DNA from: Vitis vinifera
Lineage: Eukaryota; Streptophyta; Magnoliopsida; Vitales; Vitaceae
Assembly: GCF_030704535.1 (NCBI RefSeq)
Contig: NC_081808.1
Location: 22,075,501 to 22,139,500, forward strand
Direction of reading: 5' to 3'
DNA length: 64,000 bases
Below the pieces are notes generated by a model that did not search any database, was not told the DNA's origin, and worked only from the letters and a program-made list of their open reading frames with translations. This document shows, one piece after another, positions 4,363 through 64,000 of the stretch (positions within the stretch are counted from its first letter, which is position 1; each line of letters opens with the position of its first letter). Position numbers and translations under genes: made by a program.

Positions 4363-4400
4363 TATGGTGTCTGTAGTGAAAACCTGGTACCTCGGCTTCC

Positions 4401-7018: not shown

Positions 7019-7114
7019 GCTGTTGCAAGAGAGGGATCCTTAAAAAGATGAGGAGAGAAGAACATTGCTGTTGCAAGAAAGGGATCCTTAAAAAGATGAG
7101 GAGAGAAGAACGTG
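7019..7114. repeat. 48-bp tandem duplication (two copies)
   Basis: Two adjacent copies that begin GCTGTTGCAAG and contain GGGATCCTTAAAAAGATG, with period 48. Near-identical, so probably a recent slippage event in the upstream region of the PLD delta gene. Confidence 0.7.
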
Positions 7115-7715
7115 AGGTGGAGATCACTCCCCAGTCTTAACTTTAATTTGGCAGGTGGGGAGATGTCCATGCCCAAACTTGGAAGCAAATCTTGGCCCAC
7201 GCTTTTTTCTCAGAAACTTGTGATATTCCATGGATGAGTTAAAAGCTTAAGTATCATATTTGAATTTTGAAATTCCTTGGATGCAACAAGTCTGACAGTG
7301 AACAAGGTGTGAGCAGTACTTGACCCTTCTTTTTAAGCTGTGACGGTCGAAAAAGGGCGAGGGATGAAAGCAGGGTGAATGCCGGTCAGGAGATGCTCTC
7401 TCACCCATTTCAATCATGAACGTGGCCTGTTGTCTATTCCCAACTACTTCTTGCCCCCCTTTCCCCATCTCATTATAGGTGTCACTTGTCGTTCTCTTTC
7501 CTCTAATTGTCAAATAATTTCCTATTTTATTTCAAATCATTTATTTCGAGTTTATTAAAATATTCACAAAAGTATTCTAAGCAATCTCTTTCTTGGATTA
7601 TCCGACCGGCGTATCCTTTCCGGCTTCCTCTCATTCTACTCTCTGCGATTTTCTTTCTCAGTTCTGCTGTGTAAAACGCACGCAGGTGTTTGGGCAAGTT
7701 TAGAGCTTTGATTCT

Positions 7716-23964: not shown

Positions 23965-25575
23965 TTAGATGGTTTCTACCAAAGGGAACCTATCAAACAA
24001 TCCGGCCTCTTCCTCCATTATATTATCCAACCTTTCCAATGTGTCAAAAATCTGATCTTTAAATGGATGAGATTTATCTTCCACTCCAAATGTGTGGAGA
24101 ACACAACCCAACTCAATTGCACTACATCCAAGTGGCTTCCTGATATTCTTCTCTTTCAGCGCCTTCCTCAGTCTTGCTGCATTCTCCCACTTACCTGCAT
24201 CTTCATACATCTTAACAAGAATTATGTACCGCCCAGCATTGTCAGGGTCAAGAACAAATAACTTCTCTGCTATTTCTTCTGCAAGTTCTATATTATTATG
24301 TATTCTACAAGCACCAAGCAAGGCACCATAGACATCCTTCCCTGGCTGCATGGGCATGTTTTTAACAAACTCGACTGCCTCATGAAGAAACCCAGCTCGA
24401 CCCAAGATATCTACCACGCTAGCATAATGCTCAGAACTTTTCTCAACTCCATAATCCCCCATTTTCTCAAAAAGTTCCATTCCTTCTGCAACCATCCCTG
24501 CATGACTAAATGCAGACAACAAACATAAGAATATGACTCCATCTGGATGTAAACCACTATCAATTAGCCCAGAGAACATTTTGAGAGCTTCATCTGCATG
24601 GCCATGCATACCATAACACCTTATTATTGCATTCCAGACCACAATATTTTTATCATCGATCCGATCAAATACATCCCGGGCACTGTTCAAAAGGCCACAG
24701 TTTGCATACATTGCAATAAGACCGCTGCCTAAAGCGGCATCAAGTTCAATGCCTGACTTTATTACATAAGAATGAATCCACAGGCCCTCTTGGATGGCTG
24801 TTGCTTGTGCACAAGCAGGAAGAATAGCAACAAGAGTAGCACTATCAGGTGCATACACAGTATCACCTTGCACTTGCAGCATATTATGGAAAAGCACAAG
24901 AGCATCATCTGCACATCCATTAATGGCATAGCCCGAAATCATTGAATTCCAAGTTACAATATCTTTCTCAGAGATCATATCAAACACCCTCCTCGATGCC
25001 CCAATTTCGTTACATTTGGCATAAAATGCCACAAGAGCATTTCCAACAAACAGATCCAAATCAAGTCCATGTTTCACAACATGCCCATGAATAGCCTGAC
25101 CCTTCTTCCCATCTTTCATTGCACCACAAGCCTTTAACACAAAAGGGAAGGTATACCTGTTTGCAGCAACTCCACTGCATCGCATATATTCATAAATATT
25201 CAATGCTTCCATAAAAGGACCCAGATTTGCATAACCCTGAATGATCGTATTCCACACAAAAACATCTCTGTCAGGCAAACAGTCGAACACCTTCCTTGCA
25301 TCTTCGATGTTTGATTCATAGCACTGGGCGTACTTGCCCACAAGCTTTGCACCAAGAAATGGGTTCTCCTCAAACCCTCCAATAATTATCTGGGCATGTA
25401 TGCTTTTGATGGTTTTGGTGCCTTTACAACGCTGTAACAAGTATGTATAATCGTATGAATTTCTCTGAGATGCCATGCCCACAAAACATCTAATTGAAGT
25501 GAATATCATTCTTGTTAAAAGAAGAAGCTTTGGTTTGACGAGGAACCCAAGCATCTGAGTTCTCAAAGGAAGCAT
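23965..25575 (-). CDS. Pentatricopeptide repeat protein, PLS class with E/E+ tail, organelle-targeted, 536 aa
   Basis: Intronless frame from ATG 25573-25575 to TAA 23965-23967. The first ~35 residues are basic and hydrophobic without acidic residues, as in a mitochondrial or plastid presequence. PLS-type repeats follow, for example DVFVWNTIIQGYANLGPFME, DIVTWNSMISGYAINGCADD and NIVVWNAIIRCYGMHGHADE, each followed by a helix ending in a DG/PD-type step. After about residue 405 comes an E motif (VYGALLGACRIHNNIELAEE) and an E+-like segment (VEDKSHPFKDQIFDTLERL). No DYW deaminase domain is present. E-class PPR proteins bind single-stranded organellar RNA one base per repeat and usually recruit an editing deaminase in trans. 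The target cannot be told from this sequence by eye. Confidence 0.9.
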   Translation of the reverse strand: MLPLRTQMLGFLVKPKLLLLTRMIFTSIRCFVGMASQRNSYDYTYLLQRCKGTKTIKSIHAQIIIGGFEENPFLGAKLVGKYAQCYESNIEDARKVFDCLPDRDVFVWNTIIQGYANLGPFMEALNIYEYMRCSGVAANRYTFPFVLKACGAMKDGKKGQAIHGHVVKHGLDLDLFVGNALVAFYAKCNEIGASRRVFDMISEKDIVTWNSMISGYAINGCADDALVLFHNMLQVQGDTVYAPDSATLVAILPACAQATAIQEGLWIHSYVIKSGIELDAALGSGLIAMYANCGLLNSARDVFDRIDDKNIVVWNAIIRCYGMHGHADEALKMFSGLIDSGLHPDGVIFLCLLSAFSHAGMVAEGMELFEKMGDYGVEKSSEHYASVVDILGRAGFLHEAVEFVKNMPMQPGKDVYGALLGACRIHNNIELAEEIAEKLFVLDPDNAGRYIILVKMYEDAGKWENAARLRKALKEKNIRKPLGCSAIELGCVLHTFGVEDKSHPFKDQIFDTLERLDNIMEEEAGLFDRFPLVETI

Positions 25576-27387
25576 TTCCTCTGTTTCAATTCTCCATTAA
25601 ACCCCACAAACAACCAAATCAATAGAATGCAGTTACTTCATTGACAGTTGAATTCAAGAATAGGGTTTGAGTTGATGATTCAAGTCTAGCAATTTTTTAA
25701 CAACAAATTTCAAGGCTAATCATTTCTGCCAAACACAACAGCATTTTTCTCATTTTTAAATTGAGAATTTATATTTGGATCTCCCAAAACTCTCGGCCCA
25801 CCCATTTTATTCACCCATCCATCCTTGAAATTTGCATCGGGTGAACCCCACCCAACCCGACCCGTCTATCCATCCCTATTCCCATCTTTATCTAAATAAA
25901 AAATTAAACCCGGGACAGTGTAGAAAATTCTCATATCCATCCCACTCTATTTAATTTTTATAATTTTGAAATATTATTAAAAATAAGATTAATTTATAAA
26001 TAAATAAATATTTTAAATATTTATAATTTATTTTTATAAAAAGTAATATTTTATGCATGTTTAAAAAGTTAAAAATGAAAAAAAAAACTAAAATAATTTT
26101 TATTTAATATTATGTATAATTGAAATGAGGTTACACAAAGTCATATCCTCTAAACCCTTCTATGGTGAGATGGGTACTTAGAATAACCCGTTACATTGTC
26201 ATCCCTACATCCAATGTCTTTTGGTGGATGAGACAAAATAAAAAATTTATGTATTATAATAAATATAGATAAATTTTCATAATTTAGAAATAGTAGATAA
26301 AATAAGTAATTATTGATATTAGTTATAAAAAGAAAAGAAGAATTTATAATATGATAAATAACAAAAATACTAAAAACATTGGCAAAGGAGTTTTGGATTT
26401 TATTAAAAAATTCATATAATATTTAAGATTTTTCTTTTAAGATAGTAAGAAATTTGACCAAAACATTTTGTAATAATTTTTAGAAATATTTCGTTGAAGA
26501 ACTTTTAGAAAAATTTAATAATTTCACAAATAATATTTTTTGGATTTCTTAAATAATTAAATATAAATCACTTGATAGTGATACAAATTTTTATTAAAAG
26601 TAATCTAATATAATGTCAGTATTAAAATTTAGGTGGTCAACTCTAAATTACTAAATTCTTGATTAAACCTAAAACTCTAAATATTATAAAAATATTTAAA
26701 TTAAACTAAAAATAACCTACCAATAAAAAAACATATTTGATAAAATATCAAATATTTAAACAAAATTAAATTTTGTTGGCAATCATAAATCTTTAAATTA
26801 AACTAAAAATAACCTACTAGTAAAAAGGACATTCGATAAAATATCAAATATTTAAACAAAATTAAATTTTATCAACAATTAAATAACATTTATTTGAATA
26901 ATTGTGTACATACTTATGAATTAGCAACTGCTTGATTAAACCTAAAATTTTAACATTTAAAAAAGTCTCAAAATTAAACAAAACATAGCACACAACAAAA
27001 AAAAATGTAATAAAATATCAAATACAAAATTATAAAAAAATAATTTTGCTAGATTTATTTTATGTATATTAGGATTTAAATAAATTTAATTTTATTAACA
27101 TTAAATAAATTTAAAAATGCAAACAAACAAATATTTTATAAAATCTATTCAATATTCATACTTATTTAATTTTTTTTCACACACAAAACTAGTTTTTTAG
27201 AGAGGGCAAACTTGCATTATTTTTTCGATTTTCTAAAATTCCTAAATCAACAAAAGAAAATTCCAAACATAAATCTTAATAATATATTTACTTAATTATT
27301 TTCAATGTACCTAAAATATCATTTTTTCACATTTTTCTTCCTTCTTAAAAATAAAAGATTAGGGTTATTAAAAGATTCATACAAGAG
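25576..27387. other. AT-rich spacer upstream of the PPR gene
   Basis: 5' flank of the PPR gene, then about 1.5 kb of highly AT-rich DNA with a direct repeat at 26696-26882. No gene seen. Confidence 0.55.
26696..26882. repeat. Direct repeat, two copies, period about 98 bp
   Basis: The phrase AAATTAAACTAAAAATAACC followed by GATAAAATATCAAATATTTAAAC occurs from about 26697 and again from about 26795, with a few substitutions. Confidence 0.65.
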
Positions 27388-44287: not shown

Positions 44288-46430
44288 CAATAGGATATCA
44301 TTAACTACTTGTAAAATTTTGCAATGATTATTATAAGACACAAAATTTTTGGGTCCGCCATGGCCAGAAGCTGTTATCATTTATTAAAGTGATGGGATCA
44401 AATATTATACCATAGAGGCCCAACGTAGAATTTTTAATTTTTTATTGCTGGTTGGCGTCGCGTATGCGTGCCTAAGATACCTTCAAACTTCTAGTTGCCT
44501 TTGCGTTCATTTTTTATTCCATTTAGGGAAATCACATTTTCATCATGTGCTTTAATTATTGCGTTTTTTGGTTGGAGCGAACACTTATATTTAATTCGTG
44601 TTTTTTGTGAACACGGCTCGATTACAAAAATCCAAAGCTCTGATTAGGAATTGTCAAAACATTTGAATTTTCACCTATTCTAATTTAAATTTAAAGGATT
44701 AGACAATCAAATGATAGATAGTAATCGGTCGGATTGAAAATAAATGAATTGCTAGTTGTAGAATATTATTTTTTGTTAGATTTAAGTCTAACTAAAATAA
44801 CAATGGTTTGATTAATTTGACCACTTTTTTTCTTTTTCCGTCTAAGTGAATTGGCTTATGGCAAAGGGTTAGAGATTTTTCTTCCATTTATCAAGAACAC
44901 GATTGCTAAATAAAATGAATTGCTAGTTATAGAACATTATTTTTGTTAGATTTAAGTCTAACTAAAATAAGGTTTGATCAATTTGACCACCTTTTTTCTT
45001 TTTTAGGTTGAAGTAAATTGACCTATGATAAGGGTTAAAGATTTTTCTCTCATTTATCAAGAACATGAGTACGAACATAACGGACCTTTCTATTAATGAC
45101 CCTTTCAACTCCCTTTTCTTTGGTTATGGACTTCTTCAAAGTATTAAAATGAAAAATGTATTTAAAACTTGTCAAAACTAAAGGATTTGTCGTCATTAGA
45201 AATTCAAAGCTTTGATTCAAAATTTTCTTTATTTATCCTCAGGAGAAATTGTCAAAACTAAAGGATTAGTCAATCGAATAATTGATAGTAATTGAATAGG
45301 ATTGAAAATAATGGAATTGTTAGTTGTAGAATATTATTTTCATTAGATTTAAATCTAACTAAAATAACGATGATTTGATCAATTTGATCACTTTTTTTCT
45401 TTTTTTGGTTGGAGTAAATTGATCGAGATTTTTCTTTTATTCATCACGAACAGAACTACTAAATGTCGTCTTATACGACCATAATGGACCCTTCTATTAA
45501 TGACCCTTTCAACTCCCTTTTCTTTGGTTATGGACTTTTTCAAAGTATTAAAATGAAAAATGTATCTAAATCTTTTTTTTAGATACAAATTAAAATAAGT
45601 ATCGATAAATACTTCATGGCATGTTTTATAATGCAAAGTTGTTAAATCATACAATTTTTTCCCACAAATGAAATGAAATAGTTACAGGGAAAAAAATATA
45701 TGAAGTGGGTGTGCCAAATGGTAAAATTCAGCATATTCTCACCAACCCCAAACCCTATCGTGCTCCAACCACTTGGTCATGCTCAAACGGTTCCTAGTTC
45801 CTACACCACTTGGTCTTTAATGGGTCATCCCTGTCAGGCTGTGTCACCCCTCTCTGTCGGCTTTTGGAGAAGACATTCATATTATCTCATTCCATCTAGC
45901 CCCCAACAGCCAAACAACGTGCGTCTCATATCCACCCACTTGGACCTCTCAGCCTAATAGCACGTTCCAACCGTGTTGAATCTTCCGATGAGAAGTCAGC
46001 GTCGCCTCTAACCGTCCAAGGGACTCTTCTCTTTTTCTCAGCCTCTCTTCTCATTTCTTTCGTTAATTCGACCAATTTGGCTCCCACCTCCCGACCTTAA
46101 CAAGACTCTTCGTTTGCGGTATTGCCAGGATTCGAGAAATGACTAGACACTTTTTTCTCATACTTATTCAAATATTACCACGTGATTCGTAACTTTTACT
46201 GTGTGTAAATTCACAGACCAGTTATTTGGATTCTTTAGGAGGATATTTTAGAAATTAAGGAGGAAAACAGATCCTTCAGAAAAAAGGTAGGGGTGGGGGT
46301 GGGCTGCATTAACAAAGTGGTTTTCAGTGACTTCGATACGAAGCCATCTTCCGTCATTTTTCTCTCCCACTTCTCAGTTTCGACTCTTCCTGATTGGTTG
46401 AGCTTTGCGTCTGCCGTCTACCCAATTAAT
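44288..46430. other. Spacer between AKRP and the nuclease gene
   Basis: AKRP 3' flank, a three-copy repeat (44731-45570), and from about 45680 a more GC-rich stretch that should contain the promoter and 5' UTR of the nuclease gene. No further gene seen. Confidence 0.55.
44731..45570. repeat. Three-copy degenerate direct repeat
   Basis: Units start at about 44731, 44919 and 45300. Each contains GAATTGCTAGTT-like, GTTAGATTTAAGTCTAACT and TTTGATCAATTTGACCAC phrases; the last two also share CCCTTTCAACTCCCTTTTC. The AGATTTAAGTCTAACT core is itself partly palindromic. Divergence is moderate. Confidence 0.7.
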
Positions 46431-49400
46431 ATGCTCCGAGCTCATTTATGCCTGCCTACAGTCTCCGGTGCTGGACTTGTCGCGCAGCAATTCGACGGCA
46501 GCCGTTTGGTCTCCAATTCGCTGGTTTCATTCTCCTCGCGGTTCTCATTCCAATTAGGTTTCAGAGGCAGACACAGTCGCGGATCCAAATCCGTCATCAT
46601 TTCTTGTAGAGCTTCTCGCGGAAGCTCCGGTGACAGATCGGCCAATGGCGAAGATCGCGATCAAGATTATCTCGAAGCCTTCGTTCTCATTTCAGGTTTC
46701 CATTCGTTTTTTTTTTCTTTCTTTTTTTTCTTATTACAGAAAGGATGAATTTATTTCCGAATTCTTTGGGATTTTCGCCTTTTTTTTTTCTTTGACGCGG
46801 TATAAATTGGAGTTATTAGAAAATCAAATGCGCGGGCGTTTGATGGTTTTTCTTAGTAAGAGAATGTGCTATTAGCATGAATTGATCCTAATTTTCCTAG
46901 AAACTGTTGAATATAAAGAAAATACAGCAAAAGAAGGTCTAGTTTATAGGTATATATAGAAATACTAGTTTGATCATGTGGTTTTGAATGCCCTATCCTG
47001 TAAATTTATCTCACTGCAATTTTGCTTATGGGGAAATGCAGTACGTAAAGCATCTGAATCAAGAGTTGAAAATTCTAAAATTGGCTGGAGAAAAGGAATT
47101 TATTGGCTGCAAATTTATTGTAGAACCTATACCTTTGGTGAGAGAAGGTTCCTGGTGGATACCTTGTTTGCGAAATGCAGCTAGGGAAAATCTTGGAACT
47201 GTAACTATGTCCTGTTTTCAACATTGGAAAAGGAAAATGGAACAACACTGAAATACATGTTTATTAATGCACTTTCAAAAACAGATTTAAAAAAGAATTT
47301 CCTGTGCCCTCTTTAGAAAACCTTAAAATTTTACCTTGTGTTTTACAAAAACGCACGCTCTACAACAATTGAAAAAACAAAAAAAAGCACTACCATGTTC
47401 ATTGTTTGCAGTTGCTAAGAATGCATCATGACAAGTTTTGAGTAGTTACTTCTTTTTGTGTGTGTGTGTGTTTTTTTTTAATCCATTCCAATGCCTCCCT
47501 AACTTCCACTATTTAAACTATTGAAGAAACTATCAGCCACCACCAGATGCGTAAACAAGGATTTCTGGAAGGGAATAAATGGCAATCTTGGGGCCAACTG
47601 CATCCTTTTTCTGCTCAAACAAAGGATTTAAGAGCTGATGTCAGTTCAATTGGACAAGGATTTCTTCGTCGTTTTCAGAGTCCCACAATTTTTCTTAAGC
47701 TTTCTTGTGATGGAGACTTCTTACTACCAATTATTGTAGGTATATTGATGAATTTCTTCAGTAATCAATGTGTTACTATCTTCAGTTATTCCATTGTCAT
47801 TTGATGGACAGTTTTGCAAAGAAGTAACTTTAGTTTTCTCCTATTGCAGGGGAGTTTTCTGTTGAAAAACTTATTGATACCTTACGGGAGGATGCAATTG
47901 TGGTAACCATTTGAATTAATTTTCATGGAACCTATTGTTTGTCTATTTTCATATCAATGATTGGATAAGATATTGCTGCAGGATTGCCCTAATCAGTTTC
48001 AGTTTGTGAGAGATCTTGTGGGGAAACTTGGCTACAAAGTACGGTGCTTATTTTTCATGTATTAATACATGCATATGCTTGTATTGTTAGTCATTTTCCT
48101 ACTATAGTGGCTATTTTTCATTGCATTTTTTAATAAAGATACTAGTTTTAGATTTTTATTAACATGATTTCTCATTTGCCTAGCCTCATTGCTTATATTG
48201 GATTTTCATAAGTTCTATGCAAGTGACTAAACAATTGTGTCTAGTAGTTGTTGGAGAAAGAGAGGGAGAAATCCAAAAAAGAGAAGGGATATAAAGGAAG
48301 TAATAGGATGGGTTCTCCTTTTTTAACTTTGCATCATTTACTTGAGTGAAAACACAGTAAGCTGGTACTACTCTTCCATATCTGGAGAAGAAACTTGCAA
48401 CTAGAAACATCTAACACCCCTTTGATGCCCCTTTGACTCTCTCACACAATAGCTGGTCTATCTATTTGGCTCTAATTTGACATGTGAAATTTACTAATTG
48501 TCTATCTTTCTACTTAAAGCATGTCCTGCAACTTTTTGTTGATGCATTTATTTAGAATCATAGGAGTATATATGAAGTGATTATATTGATTATTACTTCA
48601 TCTGACATGATTTTTCAGTAGTGTAATGCCTGTAACCTTTAACTACCATGTTACAAAATTTTACATCATATCATAGTTAATTATTACATTTCACTTTCTA
48701 AACATTATGGTACATTTATTGACTAAACTATTCCCGTTTCCCTGAATTCCTTTAACAAAATCATAATTTTAATTGCAGGTAAACATGGTGAAGATCACAG
48801 AAAGAATCGTTAATACTTACTTTGCCAGAATATATTTTAGTAAGGTAGGCATAAACTTGCGAAGCATATGCATTATGCATTGCTGAAAATACAACAGCTT
48901 CATGTAATTTCTTTTTATGTTCATCTTGAGGTTTTTATATCATGCAGCCAGGGGAGAATAATATTCAAAGTGTTGATGCACGTCCTTCAGATGCCATAAA
49001 TGTAGCAAAACTATGCAAGGTATTTACTTTCCACACCTTGGCAGCCAAACTGCTATTAATATTTGTTAACCCAAAAGAAAAGGCTATGCATTGTGAGCTT
49101 AGGTTTTAAATCATTCTGCAATTTTGAGTGTCTTTCACAGCTTATTATTCTTATTAGCACCCTGTTGCTCACCAAGGCTGTCTTGAACTTGCTAAATTGA
49201 AGTTCTGGTGTCCAATTCTGACTATGCTGTCATACACCTTGAAAGGAATTGTTTATTACTGACAGTAAAATAAAAAAGTATACAGATAACAAGCTAAAAA
49301 AAGATACAATTGACATACAAACTGGATTAGTCAAATAGTCAGGGAAGCCCTCTTTGTGTGCATGTGTGCGCCCCCCTATTGCTTATAATTCAAATAGTTT

Positions 49401-49966
49401 GGATTGAGTTGTGCAATTTATTGTGTCTGCAGGTGCCAATATATGTAAATAAACAGATTATCTTGACAGATGCCATTAGAATTGTTTATGGGATGGGAAG
49501 AGCTCGTGATACAAAATCTGTTTATGATGTTGTCTTAGACAGGTATTACTGTGCTTGCTCTAGAGGCCTTGTTTTCATGTCATGAGTTTTTATTGTACCG
49601 TGCCACTAAGCATGAGTGGTATCTTTTCCAGTGCTGCTGACGGTCCAGATTTACTTGCTGAGGAACTTGATCTGGTGAGGAATATGAGTTTAGCTATTAA
49701 GGAGGAAAGGTACAATGATGCAGGTATATTTTAGATAAAGCAATAACAGGCCTCTTATATGAACGCTGTTATAAATTATACTGTAGATTCTCCCTCTCTT
49801 TTTTTGTCTTCTAATATGCCCATCTCCATTTAATAAGTGATGGATAAAATAATGCTCATATATGGATGCTACTATAATATAGATTCATCTTGACTGATCA
49901 GTGGTTTCTGCAGCTTTGTGGAGAGACAAACTCATGAAGCTGCGGGAGTCAAGACATGAGCTATAG
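46431..49966 (+). CDS. BBD: Bifunctional nuclease (BBD type) with UVR motif, wound-responsive family, 326 aa
   Basis: Exons: 46431-46695, 47527-47739, 47850-47902, 47982-48038, 48779-48844, 48948-49019, 49433-49542, 49632-49723 and 49914-49966 (TAG 49964-49966). Phases fit and the sum is 327 codons with stop, the length I recall for Arabidopsis BBD1/2 (~325 aa). Start MLRAHLCLP gives a basic, Ser-rich N-terminus without acidic residues for about 40 positions, a possible plastid presequence; the frame is open back to ATG 46293. Motifs: DYLEAFVLISETISHH, the bifunctional-nuclease core (PTIFLKLSCDGDFLLPIIVG, later DARPSDAINVAKLCK and VPIYVNKQI), then a UVR motif at about 298-320 (LAIKEERYNDAALWRDKL). 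The family shows RNase and DNase activity and acts in wound, ABA and defence responses. Confidence 0.9.
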
Positions 49967-50826
49967 CTGATGGTGTGTACCCTTTGTATGCTTATCTATC
50001 GCCATTTAGAGCTTGATTCTCTTCTTTGAATAGCATTTTCATCAAGCTTGGGAAAAGGTTTATGGGGTTGGTTTCTGGTTTGGTGTTAGTGGCTGGATGC
50101 CATTTCATATTTGGTTGAACAGTGTCACCGATTTATCATTGATGACAGGATCGGTGTTCGTCGGGGAAGAAAGCATGGAGTCTTTTCATATACAGCATTT
50201 CTGTAGGACTATTTAAGTGAGAGGGGAACACACCATAGTATCCGATGCTTGAGAAATGACTGAGTACCCCCAGCAATTCGTGGGAAAGGGCTAATGACAG
50301 AAGAAACTTCCCAAATAATGATATGTACAGCTTTTTAACTTTCCACCAAATGTTGGCCCATGAATGTAAATGCAAAATAATGTATTCAATTATATCAACC
50401 TAATATCAATCAGAACAGATAAGTTCCCAATGCTTGTACCTAGCCCTTGGTAGGTTAGTATAGCAAGAAACAGATGCATCATCTCTCCTTGCTAATGTCA
50501 AACACCTCCCGTTGAATAGCAGTGGAAGAGTATTTCTATTGGTTGCACTCTTGCTTTGTCCACATTCTTCTTTATTTTTCAAACAAAATATCATGTTAAA
50601 AAGGGAATGCGTGCACTGGCTTCTGACTTTGAATTTTACTTTTCAGTTGGTAATTCTTTTGGTCCATTTTTTAGGAGGTCAGAGAAACTGGGCATTCTTA
50701 TTTCCCTAGTTTCGCTTGAATAAAGAATATTTTGCATCCAAATAAACTGAAGTAATTATAAAAATACAGTTGAGGGACAGGGAAAACCAACTTATTAGCA
50801 AGTTTAAAAAGAACTTAAACTTGCAG
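49967..50826. other. Convergent spacer between the nuclease and ammonium transporter genes
   Basis: 3' flanks of two convergent genes; short frames only, no gene supported. Confidence 0.5.
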
Positions 50827-52496
50827 TTAACAATGACGGCACATGGAAGGAATTGTGAGGCGACGATGTGGGTGTGTTGGCCTCCTCTCTCCGTCTCCCC
50901 ATAGGGCATACGCTTCCTCTCCATGCGCTGCATCATCACCTATCTCAAGGTCTCTTTCGTCCATTCTGAGATTAAGAAAGCGGCTTAAGAATATACAGAT
51001 CAAGCTTGTCACAACCACATTCCATGAAGCCACAAAAACAGCTCCTAGAATCTGGAAGCCCATTTGTTTTAGACTGTCCATTAATCTACCCTGAATTAGA
51101 CCATAAAATAAGCCTGGTCCATACGGTGTCTCCGTGTAGTATAGCTTCAAAAGGCTGGGTTTGGCCAATATTCCAGAGAGGAGTCCTCCCAAAGTGCCAG
51201 CCACTGCGTGTGTGTGGAAGGCACCCAAGGTGTCATCAACCTTCTGGAAGAAAGCTGATTTCCTGTGCAAAACCATCATGGTGTACCAGGGTATTGAACC
51301 AGACATTGCTCCCATCAACCCTGCTGCCCATGGTTCCACTATCCCTGCCCACGTGAAGATCAAGAGGAGAAGCCAAATGTTTGAATGAGAAACAAGAGTA
51401 GAATGTAGAGTTGGGCAAAGAGATAAACCAAGGACAAACCTGCAGCAGGAGTGATGCAGACGAGACCAGTGATCATCCCCTGCACAGCCCCAATGGCAGA
51501 GCTTTTCTTATAAACCAACATGTCCATTGACAGCCACACGAAGAGGCTGGTGGCTGTGCAGATATGGGTGTTGAGAATAGCTAGTGAAGTGATCTCATTC
51601 GCTGCAAATGGAGACCCGCCGTTGAAACCTGTCCAACCCACCCATAGGAACCCTGCTCCTCCCAACATGTGAATTATGTTGTTTGGTGGAAAGTGTTGCC
51701 TGTCATGTGAAAGCCTTGGTCCTACCTATTCTCACCCACGCCACCATAAAATCCCACAATCAATTCATCAATTCAATCATGCACACACTATAACATCGTC
51801 CATCCATTGTCTAACCACACACAAAAAATAAAATAAAATAAAATAAAATAAAATAAAAACCCAAAACCAAAACCTTAATATCATTTTTCTTACCCAATAA
51901 GCCGCTGTGAAACCAGCCACCCCGGACGAAAGATGAATGACATAACCACCCGAGAAATCTATGATACGGTTTTGAAGAAGCCCACTGCCCCAAATGTTAA
52001 AGGCTCCAATGGTGTAAGAAAAGGTGAGCCACAGAGGAACAAAGGACATCCAAGCATAGAAATTCATCCGCCCAAGCACCGACCCACCAAGCAATATGAC
52101 AGTGATGGCAGCAAATGCAAATTGATAGAACACGTAAGTGGCGGTCGGGATGTACCAATTTTTTGCCCTCTCCAGCAGATACTTCTGGCCCAATGCAAAG
52201 TTGGGCTTTCCCAGGATAGGACACATCCTTTCCCCGAAGGACATCTCATGGGCCCAGAGCACCCAACATATGAGCACCACCGCAAAGGCGTAAAGGGCCA
52301 TGAAGGAAGAATTCACTGCCCATTTCTTCTTCACCATGCTACCATACAAGATTACAAGCCCAGGAACGCTCTGTATGGCCACCAAAGCTGCTGCTGTCAG
52401 CTCCCATGCATTGTCCCCTTTGTTCATCCATTCCGGAGACCCCTCATCCGGCAGAAGTCCCGAAGGAAGAGGCCCCTCAAGTTGCGGCCAACTCAT
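50827..52496 (-). CDS. AMT2: AMT2-type ammonium transporter, intact copy, 468 aa
   Basis: Plasma-membrane ammonium transporter. Minus-strand exons: 52496-51894, 51725-51440 and 51344-50827 (stop 50829-50827), GT-AG and in phase. Motifs: [19 protein letters not shown] at the N-terminus, [64 protein letters not shown], and the conserved AMT2 cytosolic tail [20 protein letters not shown] with YALWGDGE. Many hydrophobic helices are visible, as expected for 11 spans. The second intron (51345-51439) is only 95 bases; splicing at its GCAG gives [11 protein letters not shown], aligning without gaps to AAG-VVQGWAAI of the family. The start MSWPQLEG is the one matching the family; the frame is open further upstream. 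A TATA-like CTATAAAG lies at 52674-52667. Confidence 0.92.
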
Positions 52497-52666
52497 AAAA
52501 GGAGGAGAGACAAAAACGGAGGAAGAAACGAAAAATAATTTTAGAGAATGGCGGTGGGCATTGCAATATAAAGTGACACAATTTTGGAGGTATTCATGAA
52601 GGGGAGAGCATTGGAGATATCGTTTGTTGATCTTAAATATATGCACAGGATCATAGCTGTTGCTTA

Positions 52667-52674
52667 CTTTATAG
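52667..52674 (-). promoter_or_regulatory. TATA-like box of the intact AMT gene
   Basis: CTATAAAG on the minus strand, about 170 bases before the ATG; the same motif is at 57291-57284 before the second copy. Confidence 0.4.
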
Positions 52675-54216
52675 ATTCATTTTGGGATTTCAGAAAGGGA
52701 GTTGCGTGGGACACAATCGCTTATTAGTGTTTTGTCCGGTTTCTAACGTCGGCTTTGCAAAATGGGTGGTGTGAGCTTGAGCAGGCGAGTAGGTTTGTTT
52801 GATGTATAGTCAACAGGTGCTTCTGGCAAATTTTAATATTAAAAGTGAATCGTCGGTGCCTGTATATTCAGAATCCGACATGGGTGGCCAATGCCGATGG
52901 GATTGTTGCAATAGCTGAAATACCGTGCCAGTGCATCGGTTTACTATACTTTCGAAGCCTGATACTTGTATAATTTTATTTTGGAACAATGCTCCTTTAA
53001 AATATTACAACTTTGAAGTAGTGCATCTATGAAATAATGTTGTTGTACTACTGCAGCACAACAACGTTATAAAATTATTGTTGGAGGCGGAGGTCCGACG
53101 GCCGGGGGCGTCGTGGGCCTGTGTTTTAGAGGCTGCTGAAGAAGTTGCTGTCACCGATTCTTACGACAATAAGAAAAGGGTATGCTAAGACAAACCCATT
53201 GTCTTGGCCATGGGAATGAGTCGAATGACACATCCCCTTAAAGGGGTACAGCATACCCATTGCCTTAGCCATGGAATGGCACACCCCCTTTGTTTGGTGC
53301 GCCATTAGCTCTTCCTTCCTAGTGGTTAAAGTTGTCTAAACACTTGTCCCAAATTCTTAGGATTTTTCATTAATTTGAGAAGGCTAAACGGATTTTTTAC
53401 TAAGACTTTTGCCACAAGGGATTTCTAGTTCTTCCTTGTCCAAAAAATTAAATATAATTAAAATTAGTTGGAAACTTATGTATTTTAAAATTATTTAATC
53501 TTTATATTGATGAATTAAAATAAATAAAATGAGTTCAAAATAGCAAGTAAAAATAATTTATCATCTTTAATTTTATTTTTTATTTTTTTTCAAGAAAAGT
53601 TTTCTTTCCTTTTACTTTTCCTTTTTATTTTCTTTTCTTTGCATTTTCCCTTAAATTTTCTAAAAATCAAACATAGCCTTTGTGGTTGTCATGAGTTTGT
53701 TAACTTAGATATCCATCAATGGAGGATTCCTAGAAAGTTATTGCTAGTTAAATTGGTATCTTTATTTTATTTTATTTTATTTTATTTTATTTATCCATCA
53801 TCCTTCCTGATTTCTAGAAGTAAATAAAACACTCAAAGTGAACCAAAATGAGAGGAGTTTAATTCCTCATTAATAATGACACTGAAGTCTTGTTACAAAA
53901 TCTTATTAATCAACTCAAACTTGACATTGTAATTCAGAATTCTTACTAAAAAATCCAACATAAAATTACATCTTATTGTGAGTTTGTTAATCTTTAGCAA
54001 TTGACTGAAGTGTCATTTGGATCTGCCTTTTGTTTTTTATTTTTTTAAAATAGAAAAAATAATTTTTATATAAAATATAAGAATTCTTCTTAACTTCTAA
54101 AAAAAAGTTAATAATTTTTAAAAATTATTTTAAATTTACGTTTTTTTATATAAGAGTTATTATATTTTATATAAAAATTGTTCCCATTTTTTATTTTTAA
54201 AAACAAAAAACATGAA

Positions 54217-54249
<33 letters not shown>

Positions 54250-55250
54250 TTTTATAATTAATTTTAATAATATATAAATTCATATTTGTAATATCATATT
54301 GACATTATACAAAAACATTAAACTTGAATTACTTAAGTGGAATATGAGTAACCAAAAACTCATTTTTAAATTTAATAAGAGTTTATATGCTTGTTTGATT
54401 AATTTTGTTCAAGCAATTTCATAACCTTTTTTTTTCTTTTTAATATTCAAAGAACCTTTCATGGTCACTCTTATGACATTTTATGAGGACTCAAGCCTTG
54501 GGAGCTCTCACAATAACTAATATTAGGTAATTCAACATATGATTAGTGAACCGAAAACTATGTCACTTTTCAATGTTCGCCCTTACCAATTGGGCTACTT
54601 GACAGATTCAAAGAACTTATAACTTACATAAGAGCTTGCCACGAAAGTCAAGAAAGAATTGTTTCGCATAGAAATTCTATTTTGATTTGACCATACATAA
54701 GGGTATTTAACTTAATTAAACAAAGGTTAAGTACCTAATGTGTTGTTTTCGGTTTCGTTGAAAAGACTAGCTTGTGGCCAGAAAATAAAGCCAGGCAAAT
54801 TGGTTGGATTTGCCACAAGAGAGAATCAAAAGCTGGTTTGGACTATTGACTATCGACCCAAGACCCAAAAAATAGGATCCTTGCATAAATCTGGATTTAT
54901 CACAAAATGATCGACCTTTGACCATTCATGCTCGGATGATGCTACAGTCCCAGATTTGATTATCGATTTTTCCTTAGATAAAATCCCTTACGGAAATATT
55001 TTCTTAATTATGTATGGAATTAAAAGATACGTTGCTGGAGAAACGAGTTCAAGTGCTTATTCAAACGAAGGTGCCATTTCTTCACGGCCAAGAATGAATA
55101 ATTGAACACGGGACAAGGACAAGAACAGAAGACATGAAATAATTTTCCCCACAATCTCTTTTTCTTTGTTCCGGAGAATGATCGAGTCATGTGCCCTGTA
55201 CATCCCTCCCCAATTACATTTACTTCCAGAAAACTGAAACAAAGAAGGGG

Positions 55251-55270
55251 AGAGAGAGAGAGAGAGAGAG
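55251..55270. repeat. (AG)10 microsatellite, unit 1
   Basis: Pure AG repeat; the counterpart in unit 2 is at 60069-60089. Confidence 0.85.
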
Positions 55271-55493
55271 AAGGAGATTAATACTTGCCATGTTTATGCC
55301 AACAGAGCAGCATCACCACACATCTCCTAGCAATATAAAATCTGGACCTCTTCTCCTTGGCCATTGCCATCAACCCAACACTCCTCTCCTTTGCAGCAGA
55401 CCCCATCGACCGGGAAACACATTGACCCATTTTCCACCCAGAGAAACCCAGAAGCAGAAGCTCCAAAACGAAACCCAGATGCGAGACTTAATT

Positions 55494-57113
55494 TTATGGT
55501 GTAATCCTTGAGTCTTTCTTCATATCATCCGCGTGCGTGCAATCGTCTCTTTGTGTTGTCATAAGCCATTTCTCATAACCATTAAGCAACCGTTTCTTTG
55601 TCATTCTGAGATTAAGAAAGCGGCTTAAGAATATACAGATCAAGCTTGTCACAACCACATTCCATGCAGCCACAAAAACAACTCCTAGAATCTGGAAGCC
55701 CATTTGTTTTAGACTGTCCATTAATCTACCCTGAATTAGACCATAAAATAAGCCTGGTCCATACGTTGTCTCCGTGTAGTATAGCTTCAAAAGGCTGGGT
55801 TTGGCTAATATTCCAGAGAGGAGTCCTCCCAAAGTGCCAGCCACTGCGTGTGTGTGGAAGGCACCCAAGGTGTCATCAACCTTCTGGAAGAAAGCTGATT
55901 TCCTGTGCAAAACCATCATGGTGTACCAGGGTATTGAACCAGACATTGCTCCCATCAACCCTGCTGCCCATGGTTCCACTATCCCTGCCCACGTGTAGAT
56001 CAAGAGGAGAAGCCAAATGTTTGAATGAGAAACAAGAGTAGAATGTAGAGTTGGGCAAAGAGATAAACTAAGGACAAACCTGCAGCAGGAGTGATGCAGA
56101 CGAGACCAGTGATCATCCCCTGCACAGCCCCAATGGCAGAGCTTTTCTTATAAACCAACATGTCCATTGACAGCCACACGAAGAGGCTGGTGGCTGTGCA
56201 GATATGGGTGTTGAGAATAGCTAGTGAAGTGATCTCATTCGCTGCAAATGGAGACCCGCCGTTGAAACCTGTCCAACCCACCCATAGGAAGCCTGCTCCT
56301 CCCAACATGTGAATTATGTTGTTTGGTGGAAAGTGTTGCCTGTCATGTGAAAGCCTTGGTCCTACCTATTCTCACCCACGCCACCATAAAATCCCACAAT
56401 CAATTCATCAATTCAATCATGCACACACTATAACATCGTCCACCCATTGTCTAACCACACACAAAAAAAAAAAAAAAAAAAAACCAAAACCTTAATATCA
56501 TTTTTCTTACCCAATAAGCCGCTGTGAAACCAGCCACCCCGGACGAAAGATGAATGACATAACCACCCGAGAAATCTATGATACGGTTTTGAAGAAGCCC
56601 ACTGCCCCAAATGTTAAAGGCTCCAATGGTGTAAGAAAAGGTGAGCCACAGAGGAACAAAGGACATCCAAGCATAGAAATTCATCCGCCCAAGCACCGAC
56701 CCACCAAGCAATATGACAGTGATGGCAGCAAATGCAAATTGATAGAACACGTAAGTGGCGGTCGGGATGTACCAAATTTTTGCCCTCTTCAGCAGATACT
56801 TCTGGCCCAATGCAAAGTTGGGCTTTCCCAGGATAGGACACATCTTTTCCCCGAAGGACATCTCATGGGCCCAAAGCACCCAACATATGAGCACCACCGC
56901 AAAGGCGTAAAGGGCCATGAAGGAAGAATTCACTGCCCATTTCTTCTTCACCATGCTACCATACAAGATTACAAGCCCAGGAACGCTCTGTATGGCCACC
57001 AAAGCTGCTGCTGTCAGCTCCCATGCATTGTCCCCTTTGTTCATCCATTCCGGAGACCCCTCATCCGGCCGAAGTCCCGAAGGAAGAGGCCCCTCAAGTT
57101 GCGGCCAACTCAT
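55494..57113 (-). CDS. AMT2-type ammonium transporter, second copy with replaced C-terminal tail, 459 aa
   Basis: Minus-strand exons: 57113-56511, 56365-56080 and 55984-55494 (stop 55496-55494). Exons 1 and 2 have the same lengths as in the intact copy, and I count about seven amino-acid changes over ~420 shared residues (for example Leu to Arg in SGLRPDEG, Pro to Thr in TETTYGP). All membrane spans are present. Directly after Leu-Arg-Met the sequence leaves the family: the conserved 44-residue tail is gone and 35 unrelated residues ([20 protein letters not shown] and on, ending SRITP) are read from DNA that lies about 3.2 kb upstream of the AMT promoter in the original arrangement. Promoter and introns are copied. 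AMT tails couple the subunits of the trimer, so activity or control is probably altered or lost (inference). Confidence 0.85.
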
Positions 57114-57283
57114 AAAAGGAGGAGAGACAAAAACAGAGGAAGAAACGAAAAAGAATTTTAGAGAATGGTGGTGGGCATTGCAATATAAAGTGACACAATT
57201 TTGGAGGTATTCATGAAGGGGAGAGCATTGGAGATATCGTTTGTTGATCTTAAATATATGCACAGGATCATAGCTGTTGCTTA

Positions 57284-57291
57284 CTTTATAG
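57284..57291 (-). promoter_or_regulatory. TATA-like box of the second AMT copy
   Basis: Same motif and relative position as 52667-52674. Confidence 0.4.
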
Positions 57292-60068
57292 ATTCATTTT
57301 GGGATTTCAGAAAGGGAGTTGCGTGGGACACAATCGCTTATTAGTGTTTTGTCTGGTTTCTAAAGTCGGCTTTGCAAAATGGGTGGTGTGAGCTTGAGCA
57401 GGCGAGTAGGTTTGTTTGATGTATAGTCAACAGGTGCTTCTGGCAAATTTTAATATTAAAAGTGAATCGTCGGTGCCTGTATATTCGGAATCCGACATGG
57501 GTGGCCAGTGCCGATGGGATTGTTGCAATAGCTGAAATACCGTGCCAGTGCATCTGTTTACTATACTTTTGAAGCCTGATACTTGTATAATTTTATTTTG
57601 GAACAATGCTCCTTTAAAATATCACAACTTTGAAGTAGTGCATCTATGAAATAATGTTGTTGAACTACTGCAGTACAACAACGTTATAAAATTATTGTTG
57701 GAGGCGGAGGTCCGACGGCCGGGGGCGTCGTGGACCTGTGTTTTAGAGGCTGCTGAAGAAGTTGCTGTCACCGATTCTTACGACAATAAGAAAAGGGTAT
57801 GCACCAATGCCGTAACCCTTAGGGTAAGACAAACCCATTGTCTTGGCCAGGGGAATGAGTCGAATGACACATCCCCTTAAAGGGGTACAGCATACCCATT
57901 GCCTTAGCCATGGAATGGCACACCCCCTTTGTTTGGTGCGCCATTACCTCTTCCTTCCTAGTGGTTAAAGTTGTCTAAACACTTGTCCCAAATTCTTAGG
58001 ATTTTTCATCAATTTGAGAAGGCTAGACGGAATTTTTACTAAGACTTTTGTTGGGGAAAAGGAGGCCATTAGGGATTTCTAGTTCTTCCTTGTCAAGTCT
58101 TTATTTTTTTCTTAGTGAATTTCATGGGTTGTAAACTTAGAAAGGGAAAGGAGGCTCCTAGGGATTTCCACTTCTTCCTTGTGAAGTCTTCATGTTTCTT
58201 AGGTTATGTTTGGTTCCGGAAAATACAAATGAAATAAAAAAAATGTTAAGAAAAATGATTTTATCATGTTTGGTTGTCCTACAAAATATTCCAAAGAAAA
58301 TTAAATATAATTAAAATTAGTTAAAAACTTATGTATTTTAAAATTATTTAATTTTTATATTGATGAATTAAAATAAATAAAATGAGTTTAAAGTAACAAA
58401 TAAAAATAATTTATCATCTTTAACTCTATTTTTTATTTTTTTTTATTTTTTCTTTCCTTTTACTTTTCCTCTTTATTTTCTGTTCTTTGCATTTTCCCTC
58501 AAATTTTCTGACAACCAAACATTACCTTAGTAATTTTCATGAGTTTGTTAACTTAGATATCCATCAATGGAGGATTCCTAGAAAGTTATTGCTAGCTAAA
58601 TTGGTATCTTTATTTTATTTTATTTATCCATCATCCTTCCTAATTTCTAGAAGTAAATAAAACACTTAAAGTGAACCAAAATGAGAGGAGCTTAATTCCT
58701 CATTAATAATGACACTGAAGTCTTGTTACAAAATCTTATTAATCAACTCAAACTTGACATTGTAATTCAGAATTCTTACTAAAAAGTTCAACATAAAATT
58801 ACATCTTATTGTGAGTTTGTTAATCTTAAGCAATTGACTGAAGTGTCATTTGGATCTGCCTTTTGTTTTTTATTTTTTAAAAATAGAAAAAATAATTTTT
58901 ATATAAAATATAAGAATTCTTCTTAACTTCTCATAAAAAAGTTAATAATTTTAAAAAATATTTTAAATTTACGTTTTTTATATAAGAGTTATTATATTTT
59001 ATATAAAAATTGTTCCTATTTTTTATTTTTAAAAACAAAAAACATGAAATATATATATATTAAAATTTTATAATTAATTTTAATAATATATAAATTTATA
59101 TTTGTAATATCATATTGACATTATACAAAAAATTCAAAACATTAAACTTGAATTACTAAAACCTTAAAGTGTGGAATATGAGTAACCAAAAACTCATTTT
59201 TAAATTTAATAAGAGTTTATATGCTTGTTTGATTAATTTTGTTCGAGCAATTTAATAACTTTTTTTTTCTTTTTAATATTCAAATAACCTTTCATGGCAA
59301 GACTCTAATGACATTTTATGAGGACTCAAACCTTAGGCATTGACCGTCTTGTAATAACTAATATTAGGTAAATTCAACATATGATTAGTGAACCAAAAAC
59401 TATATCACTTTTCAATGTTCGTCCTTACCAATCGAGCTACCTGACGGATTCAAAAAACTTATAACTTATATAAGAGCTTAGTACGAAAGTCAAGAAAGAA
59501 TTGTTTGGCATAGAAATTCTATTTTGATTTGACCATACATAAAGGGTATTTAACTTAATTAAACAAGGGTTAAGTACTCAATGTGTTGTTTTCGGTTTCG
59601 TTGAAAAGACTAGCTTGTGGCCAGAAAATAAAGCCAGGAAAATTGGTTGGATTTGCCACAAGAGAGAATCAAAAGCTGGTTTGGACTATTGACTATTGAC
59701 CCAAGAACAACAAAATAGGATCCTTGCATAAATCTGGATTTATCACAAAATGATCGACCTTTGACCTTTCATGCTCAGATGCGACTGTCTCAGATTTGAT
59801 TATCGATTTTTTCTTAGATAAAATCCTGTACGTAAATATTTTAAAAGATACGTTGCTGGAGAAACGAGTTCAAGTGCTTATTCAAACGAAGGTGCCATTT
59901 CTTCACGGCCAAGCATGAATAATTGAACACGGGACAAGAACAAGAACAGAAGAATGAAATAATTTTCCCCACAATCTCTTTTTCTTTGTTCAGGAGAATG
60001 ATCGAGTCATGTGCTTGTAAATCCCTCCCCAATTACATTTACTTCCAGAAAACTGAAACAAAGAAGGG

Positions 60069-60089
60069 GAGAGAGAGAGAGAGAGAGAG
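60069..60089. repeat. (GA)n microsatellite, unit 2
   Basis: Counterpart of 55251-55270, with a different right edge (GGGAGGGAG). Confidence 0.85.
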
Positions 60090-60424
60090 GGAGGGAGATC
60101 AATACTTGCCATGTTTATGCCAACAGAGCAGCATCACCACACATCTCCTAGCAATATAAAATCTGGACCTCTTCTCCTTGGCCATTGCCATCAACCCAAC
60201 ACTCCTCTCCTTTGCAGCAGACCCCATCGACCGGGAAACACATTGACCCATTTTCCACCCAGAAAAACCCAGAAGCAGAAGCTCCAAAACGAAACCCAGA
60301 TGCGAGACTTAATTTTATGGTGTAATCCTTGAGTCTTTCTTCATATCATCCGTGTGCGTGCAATCGTCTCTTTGTGTTGTCATAAGCCATTTCTCATAAC
60401 CATTAAGCAACCGTTTCTTTGTCA

Positions 60425-63400
60425 TCAAGGGCTGGTCCACCTTTGCACGGTTCTGACTACTCGCTTACGTCTCTTTTATTTTCTGACTCCACGTTTCATT
60501 TTTTCATTGGTGGGAACCTACCTCCGCCGTTACACACACGATTGACCAACCTCATTATTTTTTTATTTTTTATGGAATCCATATTTCAAAGTCTAAAGCA
60601 AAAAAAATAAAAAAAATAACAACTTAATATTTTTCCAAATATTATTTTCAACATTTTAAATCCCATTTAATAAGAAAAATTAATTTTAAAGGAATTTCAT
60701 AAGTCTCAATATGCATAATTACATGGATATCCCACCTTATAGTATCACAATAAATTTAAACCTTATACTTTGTTAACATATACACATAATATTTAATAGG
60801 AAATTTAAAAAAAAAAAAAATCATCGTATTTGGTATAATATTTTATAGTAATAATCTAATTCAGTTAAAGTCGTGTCTAGTGGAATAAGGAATGAAAATA
60901 AATATTTTGTTCCATTTTTATTTCTCTTTGAATAGGAATGAATTTGGTAATTTTAATTCATTTTTTTAATATATATAAAAAAGTAAGATTAAAATAATAA
61001 TTTGTTTGCATTTCAATGTCAAGTAAAAATGGAAATAAAAGCAAAAAAGGAAATAAATTATCAATAATTTTTGTAGATATAGTTTAAAATATTTTTTTAT
61101 TTTATTAAAAAGACCTCTCATTACATAATTTAAAATAAAATTGTTTTTAAAAATTATATCATTGTTTGGTTGTTAATAAGTTTTAAAAACAAAGTAAAAT
61201 AGAGAATATTTTTACATTGGAAGAATGAATTTCAAATCAAGTGAAATTTTGTATTGAATTTATTAATAATTTTAAAAAATAACTTAAAACTCAAAAAATA
61301 TATATAATAACTATAAAAAAAAATTAATGTTTTAAATTCTTTAATAAATCTTCTAAAAGTTTTAAGAATAATTTGAAATTCAAAAAATTAATTAATTAAT
61401 TATAGATTAAATTAAATAATTTAGAATGTCATCTCCATAGTTGAGTAATAAATGTATGTATATAATAAAAAAATTGGCCCATTTTTTAAGTTAAAACATT
61501 AAATTTTATTTGTTTTTAAATTCATTTAAAATAGAATTGTATTAGAAATTATTAATTTTGAATAATTATTCTTTATTTTAAACAAAATAAATTAATTATG
61601 TTTTTATAAGATGTTAATATCATATAAAACAATATTAGAAATTATTAATTTTAAATTATTATTATTTATTTATTTTTTAAAATCAATTAATGTTAATATC
61701 CATATTTTTATAATATTTATAAAAATGTAATTTATGATTTTATTATATTATTAATATTCATAATTTATTAAAAACTATTTATTTATAATTATAAACTTAT
61801 TTTTATTTTTAATAAGATATGAATTTAATTTAATTTACATTATATAAAATGATTTTTTTTTTTTTACAAAACCAAAATAGAAAATTATTTTTAGAAGCAA
61901 ATTATCTAGAAAAGTTTTTAGTTTTTAAATTTTAGGAAAGTGCTTTTAAAAATAACTTATACTAGGAATTAAAATACCTCATAATTACGATGAATTCAAA
62001 TCTTACTTATAAGTAAAATTTTGTTTTCATTAAAATTATTTTTTTTATTCTATTCACCTCATAATTTAAATTATTGAAGCATACAAATGAAAGAGTAAAT
62101 ATCAAAGAAAATAATTTTTTTTATTTTTTATTTTGCCGTTGAAAATAGTAAAAAAAAAAAGTCAAGTATAACAATTAAAGTACGTTAGAAACTTATTTAT
62201 TTATATAAATTATTTAATCTTTTATATAAAAAAATATTAAATTAAATAAAATAAAATCAAGAATAAAAAAAGACATTGAATATTAATAATATTTGTTTCC
62301 CTTAGTTTAGGAAATAATATTTATTTTCTTTGATATTTATTATATCTTTCTTTAAATAATCCAAAGTATAAATTTAAAAAAAGAAATAATAAAATTCAAC
62401 ATTTTCATTACTAAATTATTAAACTTTTCATGTTATTAGACATGGTATTAAAATTAGTGGAGGAGGCTCGTCATCATATTCTAGCCTTCTATCCATATTC
62501 TTAATTCCTAGTCTTTTCAAATCGACCACTTATTTTGTAGTATCAGTGTTCTACACTACAAATTTCCCACTATGACAAAATCAATCTATCCCCTTAGTTT
62601 GTAGCATCGATGTTCTCCAACATCTCTTAAATAGAAAAAAACATATTAAAGAAATTAAGGAGGATGAAAAATCTATTATTGTTATTGATCAACAATGATA
62701 TATTTGTTACCTTCCGAGTTCTTAGAACCATGAAAGAAAATGGTTTCAATAGTTGAAAACCACAGGATTATGATCACTTGAAGAATATTTAAGAAGCAAA
62801 AAACAAATAAATAAATTTTACTTCTCTTTAATAAAGAAAATAATTATTAAATTATTAATTACATTAATCAACTTACATATAGAAACTTATATTTGAGGCA
62901 CATTAAAAAAAATTAATAATAGAAAATTTGAATCAAGTGTAAGAAACCAAAAAAATTAAGGTTACATTTACACATTCATTTTATTACAATATGATTTAAT
63001 AAAATGATGTAACATCCATTTAAGTAGAATCTTTTTTAAATTAGTATATGGATATAACATTCATTTATTCAATCAATATAATGAATATTATGGATTAATA
63101 TTGAAACCAAGATACATGTATGACAAAGATGCATTGTTGTGCCAAACACTTCTAGATTTGTCCCCTTGAAATTTCATTTATTACAAACCAACATTAAAAG
63201 AAACTCTTTCATTTATTTATTTATGTTAATGCACTTTCAATGATACGTAAGCAAGATATTTCTGAACTTAAATTTACTTTTTAATGATTATCGATATTGG
63301 TTTTCTTTTAAATGCACATCTATATAACTTAATTTTTTTTAATGATTATTGGTATCAATTAAATGTTAGAGTATTGAGGTAAATGATATGATAAACAATT

Positions 63401-64000
63401 GGAAGAAATCATCAGTAGAATAGATGGATGTACTTAATCTATGTTTGGTTGATATGATATAATAATAAAAGATAAATTGCATATCTTATTTTATATATGT
63501 GGTTGACGATAAAATACAATAAATATCTTATTATTTTTCATATTGCATGTTTATATATATTTAACAATATAGTATAATATTTTTTTAATGACAATTTTAT
63601 TAGTAAAAATAAAAAATACTCATTAAATGATAGTTGTAAACAATTTGAAGATAATATTAAATATGAAAGATATTTCATATTTTTTTAATAGTAAATATTA
63701 TGATGTAATATAATTTTAATTTTAAACAAACTTCACACATTGAAGTACAATATGTTTTTATTTTATTTTATTTTATATAAATCAAATATAAACATGATAC
63801 ACAATATATTCTCATTACACATAATACCCGAAGATATTATATTTCATTAGAAATATTTAAAAAAAAAAATTTCGAATTACCTTCTAAAATGCCTAAAATC
63901 TTAGATTAGTTGTTTTATCGATGAATTCTCAGTCCTATGTCGTGAATGGAATTACAAATTTTGAGAAACACTATTTTTCACAGCACAAATGCTTTTAACC
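60425..64000. other. AT-rich intergenic DNA
   Basis: Unique, GC-poor sequence after the duplication. Rich in poly-A/T runs and TATT/AATT motifs. No long frame, RNA gene or clear repeat family was found. Confidence 0.55.

Follow-up and report, generated by a model that had tools for sequence, protein, structure and literature searches.

A tandem duplication breakpoint in grapevine fuses an AMT2-type ammonium transporter gene with sequence 5' of a DVL/RTFL peptide gene

Gene content of the locus

The window analyzed in this study is a stretch of 64,000 nt from Vitis vinifera (NC_081808.1, positions 22,075,501 to 22,139,500), and all coordinates below are counted from its first base. A direct tandem repeat of a 4.6-4.8-kb unit was confirmed within this 64-kb window, with a similarity far beyond that expected by chance. 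The unit consists of two genes, both on the minus strand, a DVL peptide gene upstream and an AMT4;1-type ammonium transporter gene downstream. The features of the locus are as follows.

50962-55601: left unit copy, 4640 bp, spanning AMT exon 3 through the DVL-L 5' flank
55602-60425: right unit copy, 4824 bp
55602-55604: duplication junction, 3-bp microhomology CAT (ATG on the minus strand)
50827-52496, minus strand: AMT-L, intact AMT2-type ammonium transporter, 3 exons, 468 aa, matching VviAMT4;1
52496-51894, 51725-51440, 51344-50827, minus strand: exons of AMT-L, spliced model
55494-57113, minus strand: AMT-R, chimeric transporter, 3 exons, 459 aa (424 common and 35 new)
57113-56511, 56365-56080, 55984-55494, minus strand: exons of AMT-R, spliced model
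55494-55601, minus strand: new tail of AMT-R, 35 codons and stop, from the DVL 5' flank
55278-55430, minus strand: DVL-L, intact 50-aa DVL/RTFL ORF, starting 63 nt past the AMT-R stop
60099-60251, minus strand: DVL-R, 50 codons identical to those of DVL-L, original upstream sequence kept
60315-60425, minus strand: 36-aa ORF preceding DVL-R, with the breakpoint ATG as its start codon; the tail of AMT-R stems from this sequence in its unrearranged form (T/A difference at one residue)

The transporter genes have 424 codons in common, which end in LNLRM and contain 10 nucleotide and 7 amino acid differences. Their introns measure 168 and 95 bp in AMT-L and 145 and 95 bp in AMT-R. The original prediction, in which AMT-L retains the conserved C-terminal tail and AMT-R gains 35 new residues, is borne out on both counts by the spliced models; the new residues follow LNLRM directly and run to a stop at 55494. 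They are hydrophilic with a net charge of +2, against -7 for the first 28 residues of the AMT-L tail. Both transporters are of the AMT2 type (MEP clade), and the Ammonium_transp domain PF00909 is matched over positions 1-383 of 399 in AMT-R (E=2e-72), an 11-span core as judged by the domain match, and over 399/399 positions in AMT-L. Six pore residues, aligned with F107, W148, D160, H168, F215 and H318 of AmtB, are identical in AmtB, AMT-L and AMT-R; among pore residues of this kind are the twin His, the Phe gate, and the Trp and Asp of the outer site. The core is thus kept and the cytosolic regulatory tail is gone from AMT-R, as had been proposed.

The peptide gene was absent from the earlier description of the locus. 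In either unit its 50-aa product has a DVL domain at the C-terminus (PF08137, E=8.9e-12, residues 25-43 of 50). The two copies differ in the stop codon, TGA in DVL-R and TAA in DVL-L. Both look like ordinary members of the DVL/RTFL family; all that sets DVL-L apart is its location behind the chimera.

Origin of the chimeric tail

The alignment of the two units contains 4555 aligned bases with 135 mismatches and 21 gap runs, one of which is a 3-bp end gap alone. The CAT of the junction recurs at both outer breakpoints, 50962-50964 on the left and 60423-60425 on the right, and such a 3-bp microhomology is compatible with end joining or a template switch. The junction falls in exon 3 of the right transporter, where the minus-strand ATG encodes the Met of LRM. 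Since the ancestral order of transcription was DVL and then AMT, the new tail of AMT-R is the 5' flank of the peptide gene; it differs by one base over its 108 bases from the unrearranged sister sequence at 60315-60422. The unit alignment, the junction and the open right frame all agree with the proposal that an in-frame chimera was born at a duplication breakpoint. The flank that supplies the tail had been called unrelated, which holds with respect to the transporter tail but needs to be made specific, as this flank belongs to a DVL/RTFL gene. The 36-aa ORF at the unrearranged site would be a putative uORF if the DVL transcript extends that far. A read-through of 35 residues was also considered as remarkable in itself and rejected, because 13% of the start positions in the same flank open at least 35 codons.

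In chimeric genes formed at tandem duplication breakpoints, as in AMT-R, the new 3' end is taken from neighbouring sequence at the junction. AMT-R differs from them in having recruited the 5' flank of a peptide gene, which leaves the DVL frame in its presumed 3' UTR.

An AT-rich palindromic MITE-like element, about 70% self-complementary, lies once in each unit (54034-54210 and 58867-59042). Its presence in both units indicates that it probably predates the duplication.

Divergence and age of the two copies

Strict mismatches between the units were counted by region: 10/1272 in the CDS, 4/224 in the introns, 18/917 in the first kb upstream, 62/1404 in the middle and 2/161 in the DVL 5' flank, with the middle (53462-55211) compared to 50962-53461, as positions of the left unit in the window. 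The copies had been described as nearly identical; this is true of the CDS, whereas the noncoding middle differs by 4.4% after strict filtering. Introns and the first kb upstream taken together (22/1141) show lower divergence than the middle (p=5e-4), and synonymous sites are below the middle (p=0.004) and not below introns and first kb (p=0.45). This unevenness would be explained by local gene conversion or by regional differences in rate.

Within the common CDS, 3 changes are synonymous and 7 are replacements (dS 0.010, dN 0.007). The dN/dS of the two copies, a comparison put forward with the original prediction, is 0.70 and indistinguishable from 1 (Fisher p=0.71; 10 changes), and any inference of selection from it was rejected because there are only 10 changes. 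The units are also separated by 20 indels (the end gap not counted), all of them noncoding, with none in the 1272 common coding bases. A claim of selection based on 20 noncoding against 0 coding indels was rejected as well, because the zero count of coding indels does not reach significance when the AMT side is taken alone (P about 0.13). For a neutrally evolving AMT-R branch, 20 changes are expected from all noncoding sequence, and 10 were seen on both branches (P 0.01); the expectation becomes 12 when only the noncoding sequence of the AMT side is used (P 0.32).

With assumed substitution rates of 2.5-6.5e-9 per site and year, the noncoding divergence suggests an age of 1.5-9 My for the duplication. 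In the proposal of a recent chimera, "recent" is to be taken in a relative sense on this estimate, and an origin at the level of cultivars was rejected.

It is highly improbable that the repeat is an assembly artefact in which two alleles were laid end to end. This idea would fit with an older survey that analyzed one AMT2 member for V. vinifera, and no independent record of AMT-R or of the junction was found in the literature searched. Against it, the window is without N, the junction is a clean short microhomology, and neither outer flank is repeated within 49001-64000. Noncoding differences of 2-4% together with 20 indels also exceed the divergence expected of alleles.

AMT-L corresponds to VviAMT4;1

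A transporter gene named VviAMT4;1 (VIT_200s1818g00010) has been reported from table grape (PMC12899475). Its introns of 168 and 95 bp equal those of AMT-L, and AMT-L counted from Met24 has 445 aa, the reported length of the VviAMT4;1 protein (PMC12899475). The reverse cloning primer matches 50827-50846 exactly and ends on the AMT-L stop codon, and the reverse qPCR primer matches 50905-50924 exactly in the AMT-L tail; a window-wide search allowing up to 4 mismatches gave neither of them a second site. In intron lengths, protein length from Met24 and left-specific reverse primers, AMT-L matches VviAMT4;1, which in itself makes Vitis the most likely source of the window. The forward qPCR primer is exact in AMT-L and has one mismatch in AMT-R. 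The forward cloning primer as printed has no match in the window, the best site showing 6/20 mismatches (PMC12899475).

VviAMT4;1 is expressed in roots, is induced by ammonium depletion and mediates uptake in yeast with a Km of 49.6 uM (PMC12899475). Since AMT-R lacks the sites of the reverse primers and mismatches the forward qPCR primer, the published expression should concern AMT-L only, and the root expression, the induction by ammonium depletion and the uptake in yeast should all be assigned to AMT-L. The published qPCR primers would miss the second copy, and in the literature found on grape AMT genes neither AMT-R nor its expression is described. Other grape AMT genes, AMT3.1 and AMT3.3, are located on chromosomes 7 and 8 according to their accession names (PMC5854021).

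The new junction could also have put DVL-L behind a root-expressed, ammonium-responsive promoter, so that the peptide, as second frame of a chimeric mRNA, would be the product that matters. DVL-L is intact, with the same 50 codons as DVL-R, at 63 nt beyond the AMT-R stop, and overexpression of DVL/RTFL peptides alters organ shape and shortens roots (PMC4408365). We regard such a capture as most unlikely: DVL-L was left with only roughly 170 bp of its original upstream region, and an identity of 150 bases is unsurprising at a local divergence of 1-2%. In addition, second frames in plant mRNAs are rarely translated.

Conservation of the lost tail

AMT-R keeps only LR of the conserved tail LR..GD..HG..Y by which AMT2-type proteins were assessed here. 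Bacterial relatives of the transporter were collected and ranked by similarity to the AMT-L protein. An earlier scan of genome contigs for transporter relatives gave no match, and an alignment-based scan gave 144, of which the best 80 were combined with 2 plasmid loci to a total of 82. LR..GD..H is kept in 80/80 of the loci that reach the tail core (from the best 80 of 144 and the 2 plasmid loci); the remaining 2/82 (L076 and L077) end before it. For a 65-row alignment, 17/82 loci were left out for length or for a missing stop; LR..GD..H is present in 15 of these 17, one of the 15 (L040) ending just after the motif, and the other two are L076 and L077. Among the 65 full-length rows of this alignment, L422, R423, G432, D433 and H437 are invariant, G438 is found in 64/65 and Y442 in 47/65. 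As the AMT2-type motif reads GDD and is one residue shorter, the equivalence is positional and the spacing is not identical. A Gly at residue 432 of AMT-R is coincidental, and neither this residue nor a gapped MAFFT match of the AMT-R tail to DD..H was accepted as a retained motif.

The relatives are up to 57% identical among those listed, and many come from acidophiles. A plasmid transporter of Acidithiobacillus caldus (L001, 1-1605) is 57% identical to the grape protein, including the tail core, and lies beside a P-II gene. Land-plant AMT2 genes have been proposed to arise by horizontal transfer, and this plasmid relative fits with such an origin.

Published lesions of the conserved tail reduce or abolish transport (PMC7048316, PMC4852598, PMC3699834). 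Yeast Mep2 stopped at 426 complements poorly (PMC7048316), and transporters mutated in the ExxGxD motif show no activity (PMC4852598). Yeast Mep2 without only its distal autoinhibitory part is more active (PMC4852598). Because lesions of the conserved tail lower transport and the distal Mep2 deletion raises it, an unregulated and open AMT-R is possible, though less likely. The tail mutants AtAMT1;1 G456/T460, LeAMT1;1 G458D, ScMep2 S426stop and AmtB G393 resemble AMT-R in that the tail is disabled and the core stays. They were made in the laboratory, whereas in AMT-R the whole tail core of an AMT2-type protein was swapped by a natural duplication.

The loss of a tail core found in all 80 relatives that reach it makes AMT-R probably weak or inactive. 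However, the ranking by similarity to AMT-L may favour relatives with AMT-L-like tails, which counts against this conclusion.

Amino acid replacements in the common core

Of the seven replacements, A398V lies in the last membrane span.

55680-55682, minus strand: codon 398 of AMT-R, Val (GTT); Ala (GCT) in AMT-L at 51040-51042; aligned with AmtB I359

In two alignments, residue 398 pairs with AmtB I359 and no gap intervenes before the conserved Arg. Leucine at I359 of AmtB (Inwood 2009) is reported to bypass the requirement for the C-terminus (PMC7048316). Among the 65 aligned bacterial relatives, 55 carry Ala at site 398 and 10 carry Leu; the two closest plasmid proteins have Ala, and a more distant Azospirillum protein has Val. 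From the Ala or Leu of the relatives, Val398 is probably derived in AMT-R. Comparing the other six replacements with these relatives was of little help: the two closest have Pro at P370, the aligned relatives have Val at position 403 in 39/65 cases, Ala in 16/65 and Ser in 0/65, and positions 15, 90, 109 and 113 are not polarisable. At P370 and position 403, AMT-L may hence be the changed copy.

AMT-R could be an active, tail-independent transporter if A398V replaces the tail. Such compensation would count against an inactive AMT-R. A398V resembles AmtB I359L in affecting the corresponding span-11 residue of a protein whose tail is not functional. The substitutions are different, Ala to Val in AMT-R and Ile to Leu in AmtB, and the Azospirillum protein also has Val. 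The observation is moreover post hoc. If 7 replacements fall among 424 residues, one of them strikes a single chosen site with P=0.016; the chance rises to 0.14 over the 9 core suppressor sites named in the literature consulted (six in AmTrac, H199 and G349 in Mep2, I359 in AmtB) and to about 0.29 over 20 sites, a guessed number. We consider A398V a suggestive lead, no evidence of function, and a tail-independent AMT-R quite unlikely. A two-step history, in which the tail was removed at once and A398V later restored transport without tail control, giving VviAMT4;1 a constitutively open partner in grape roots, would be very unlikely.

Probable fate of AMT-R

We lean, with some reservation, to the reading that AMT-R is a by-product of the duplication, weak or inactive and under weak or no selection, and that AMT-L does the work. 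The tandem duplication joined exon 3 of the transporter to the DVL 5' flank through the 3-bp microhomology. AMT-L holds the ancestral 3' end, and AMT-R the 5' part and the membrane core without the cytosolic tail. Given its similar proximal promoter, AMT-R could be transcribed in roots, reading through the DVL-L frame, and the protein, if made, could insert and trimerise. Without a GD..HG..Y core docking on the cytosolic loops, it should move little or no ammonium. The AMT-R core has perhaps been kept similar by gene conversion with AMT-L. The intact AMT-R ORF, with no indel in the 1272 common coding bases, counts against an inactive by-product, and so does the shortfall of coding changes when all noncoding sequence is the yardstick.

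Failure may already occur at the mRNA, with AMT-R untranscribed, or its mRNA unstable because the 3' UTR crosses the DVL frame or lacks a proper 3' end. The sequence downstream of AMT-R is the DVL gene and not a native 3' end, none of three poly(A)-like hexamers or heptamers was found on the minus strand of 54601-55500, which counts for a silent copy, and a dN/dS indistinguishable from 1 also agrees with one. On the other hand, polyadenylation signals in plants are loosely defined, DVL-L possessed a 3' end of its own prior to the duplication, and the AMT-R frame is intact. A silent or degraded AMT-R is a possibility to be taken seriously, though a doubtful one; it overlaps with the by-product reading, differing only by failure at the mRNA, and the likelihoods given to the readings do not add up to one.

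A tail-less AMT-R could instead act as a dominant-negative subunit, joining trimers with AMT-L or other AMT2-type proteins and lowering ammonium uptake. AMTs are trimers, and both the inactive LeAMT1;1 G458D and AtAMT1;3 carrying a phosphomimic at the site equivalent to T460 reduce the activity of a wild-type partner (PMC7279009); similarly, inactive Mep1 inhibits Mep2 and Mep3 (PMC10433425). Over the first kb upstream, the copies share about 98% identity (18/917 strict mismatches), so co-expression of AMT-L and AMT-R is plausible. Nevertheless, three indels (22, 15 and 199 bp) at 0.7-0.95 kb upstream mean that the promoters are not identical, and the cited effects come from AMT1-type or fungal proteins and not from tail-less AMT2-type subunits. 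Poisoning of AMT-L by AMT-R is judged unlikely.

The tails of AMT proteins control the gating of transport, within a subunit or between subunits, and the tail evidence reviewed here comes from laboratory mutants; at this locus the plant itself has made a tail swap, with the frame open. If expressed, AMT-R would be a natural test of whether an AMT2-type transporter needs its tail and whether a tail-less subunit poisons trimers, and also of whether nature reached the span-11 bypass obtained in an E. coli screen.

Other features of the window

Upstream of the repeat, plus-strand ORFs with C2 domains (4380-5351 and 7704-8711) and with the PLD active site and PLD_C (21270-21614 and 21979-22323) apparently represent two tandem phospholipase D genes at 4380-22323. 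LINE-like remains on the minus strand at 11612-14395, comprising a reverse transcriptase ORF (11612-11992) and a DUF4283 ORF (13889-14395), lie between the PLD-gene ORFs and are thus probably inside a PLD intron. Neither tRNA genes (ARAGORN) nor Rfam families at the gathering score were found in the window. A single long ORF at 23965-25596 on the minus strand encodes a PPR protein of 543 aa with an E motif. A further direct repeat of 101 nt with 94% identity is located at 45070-45170 and 45474-45574, 404 nt apart.
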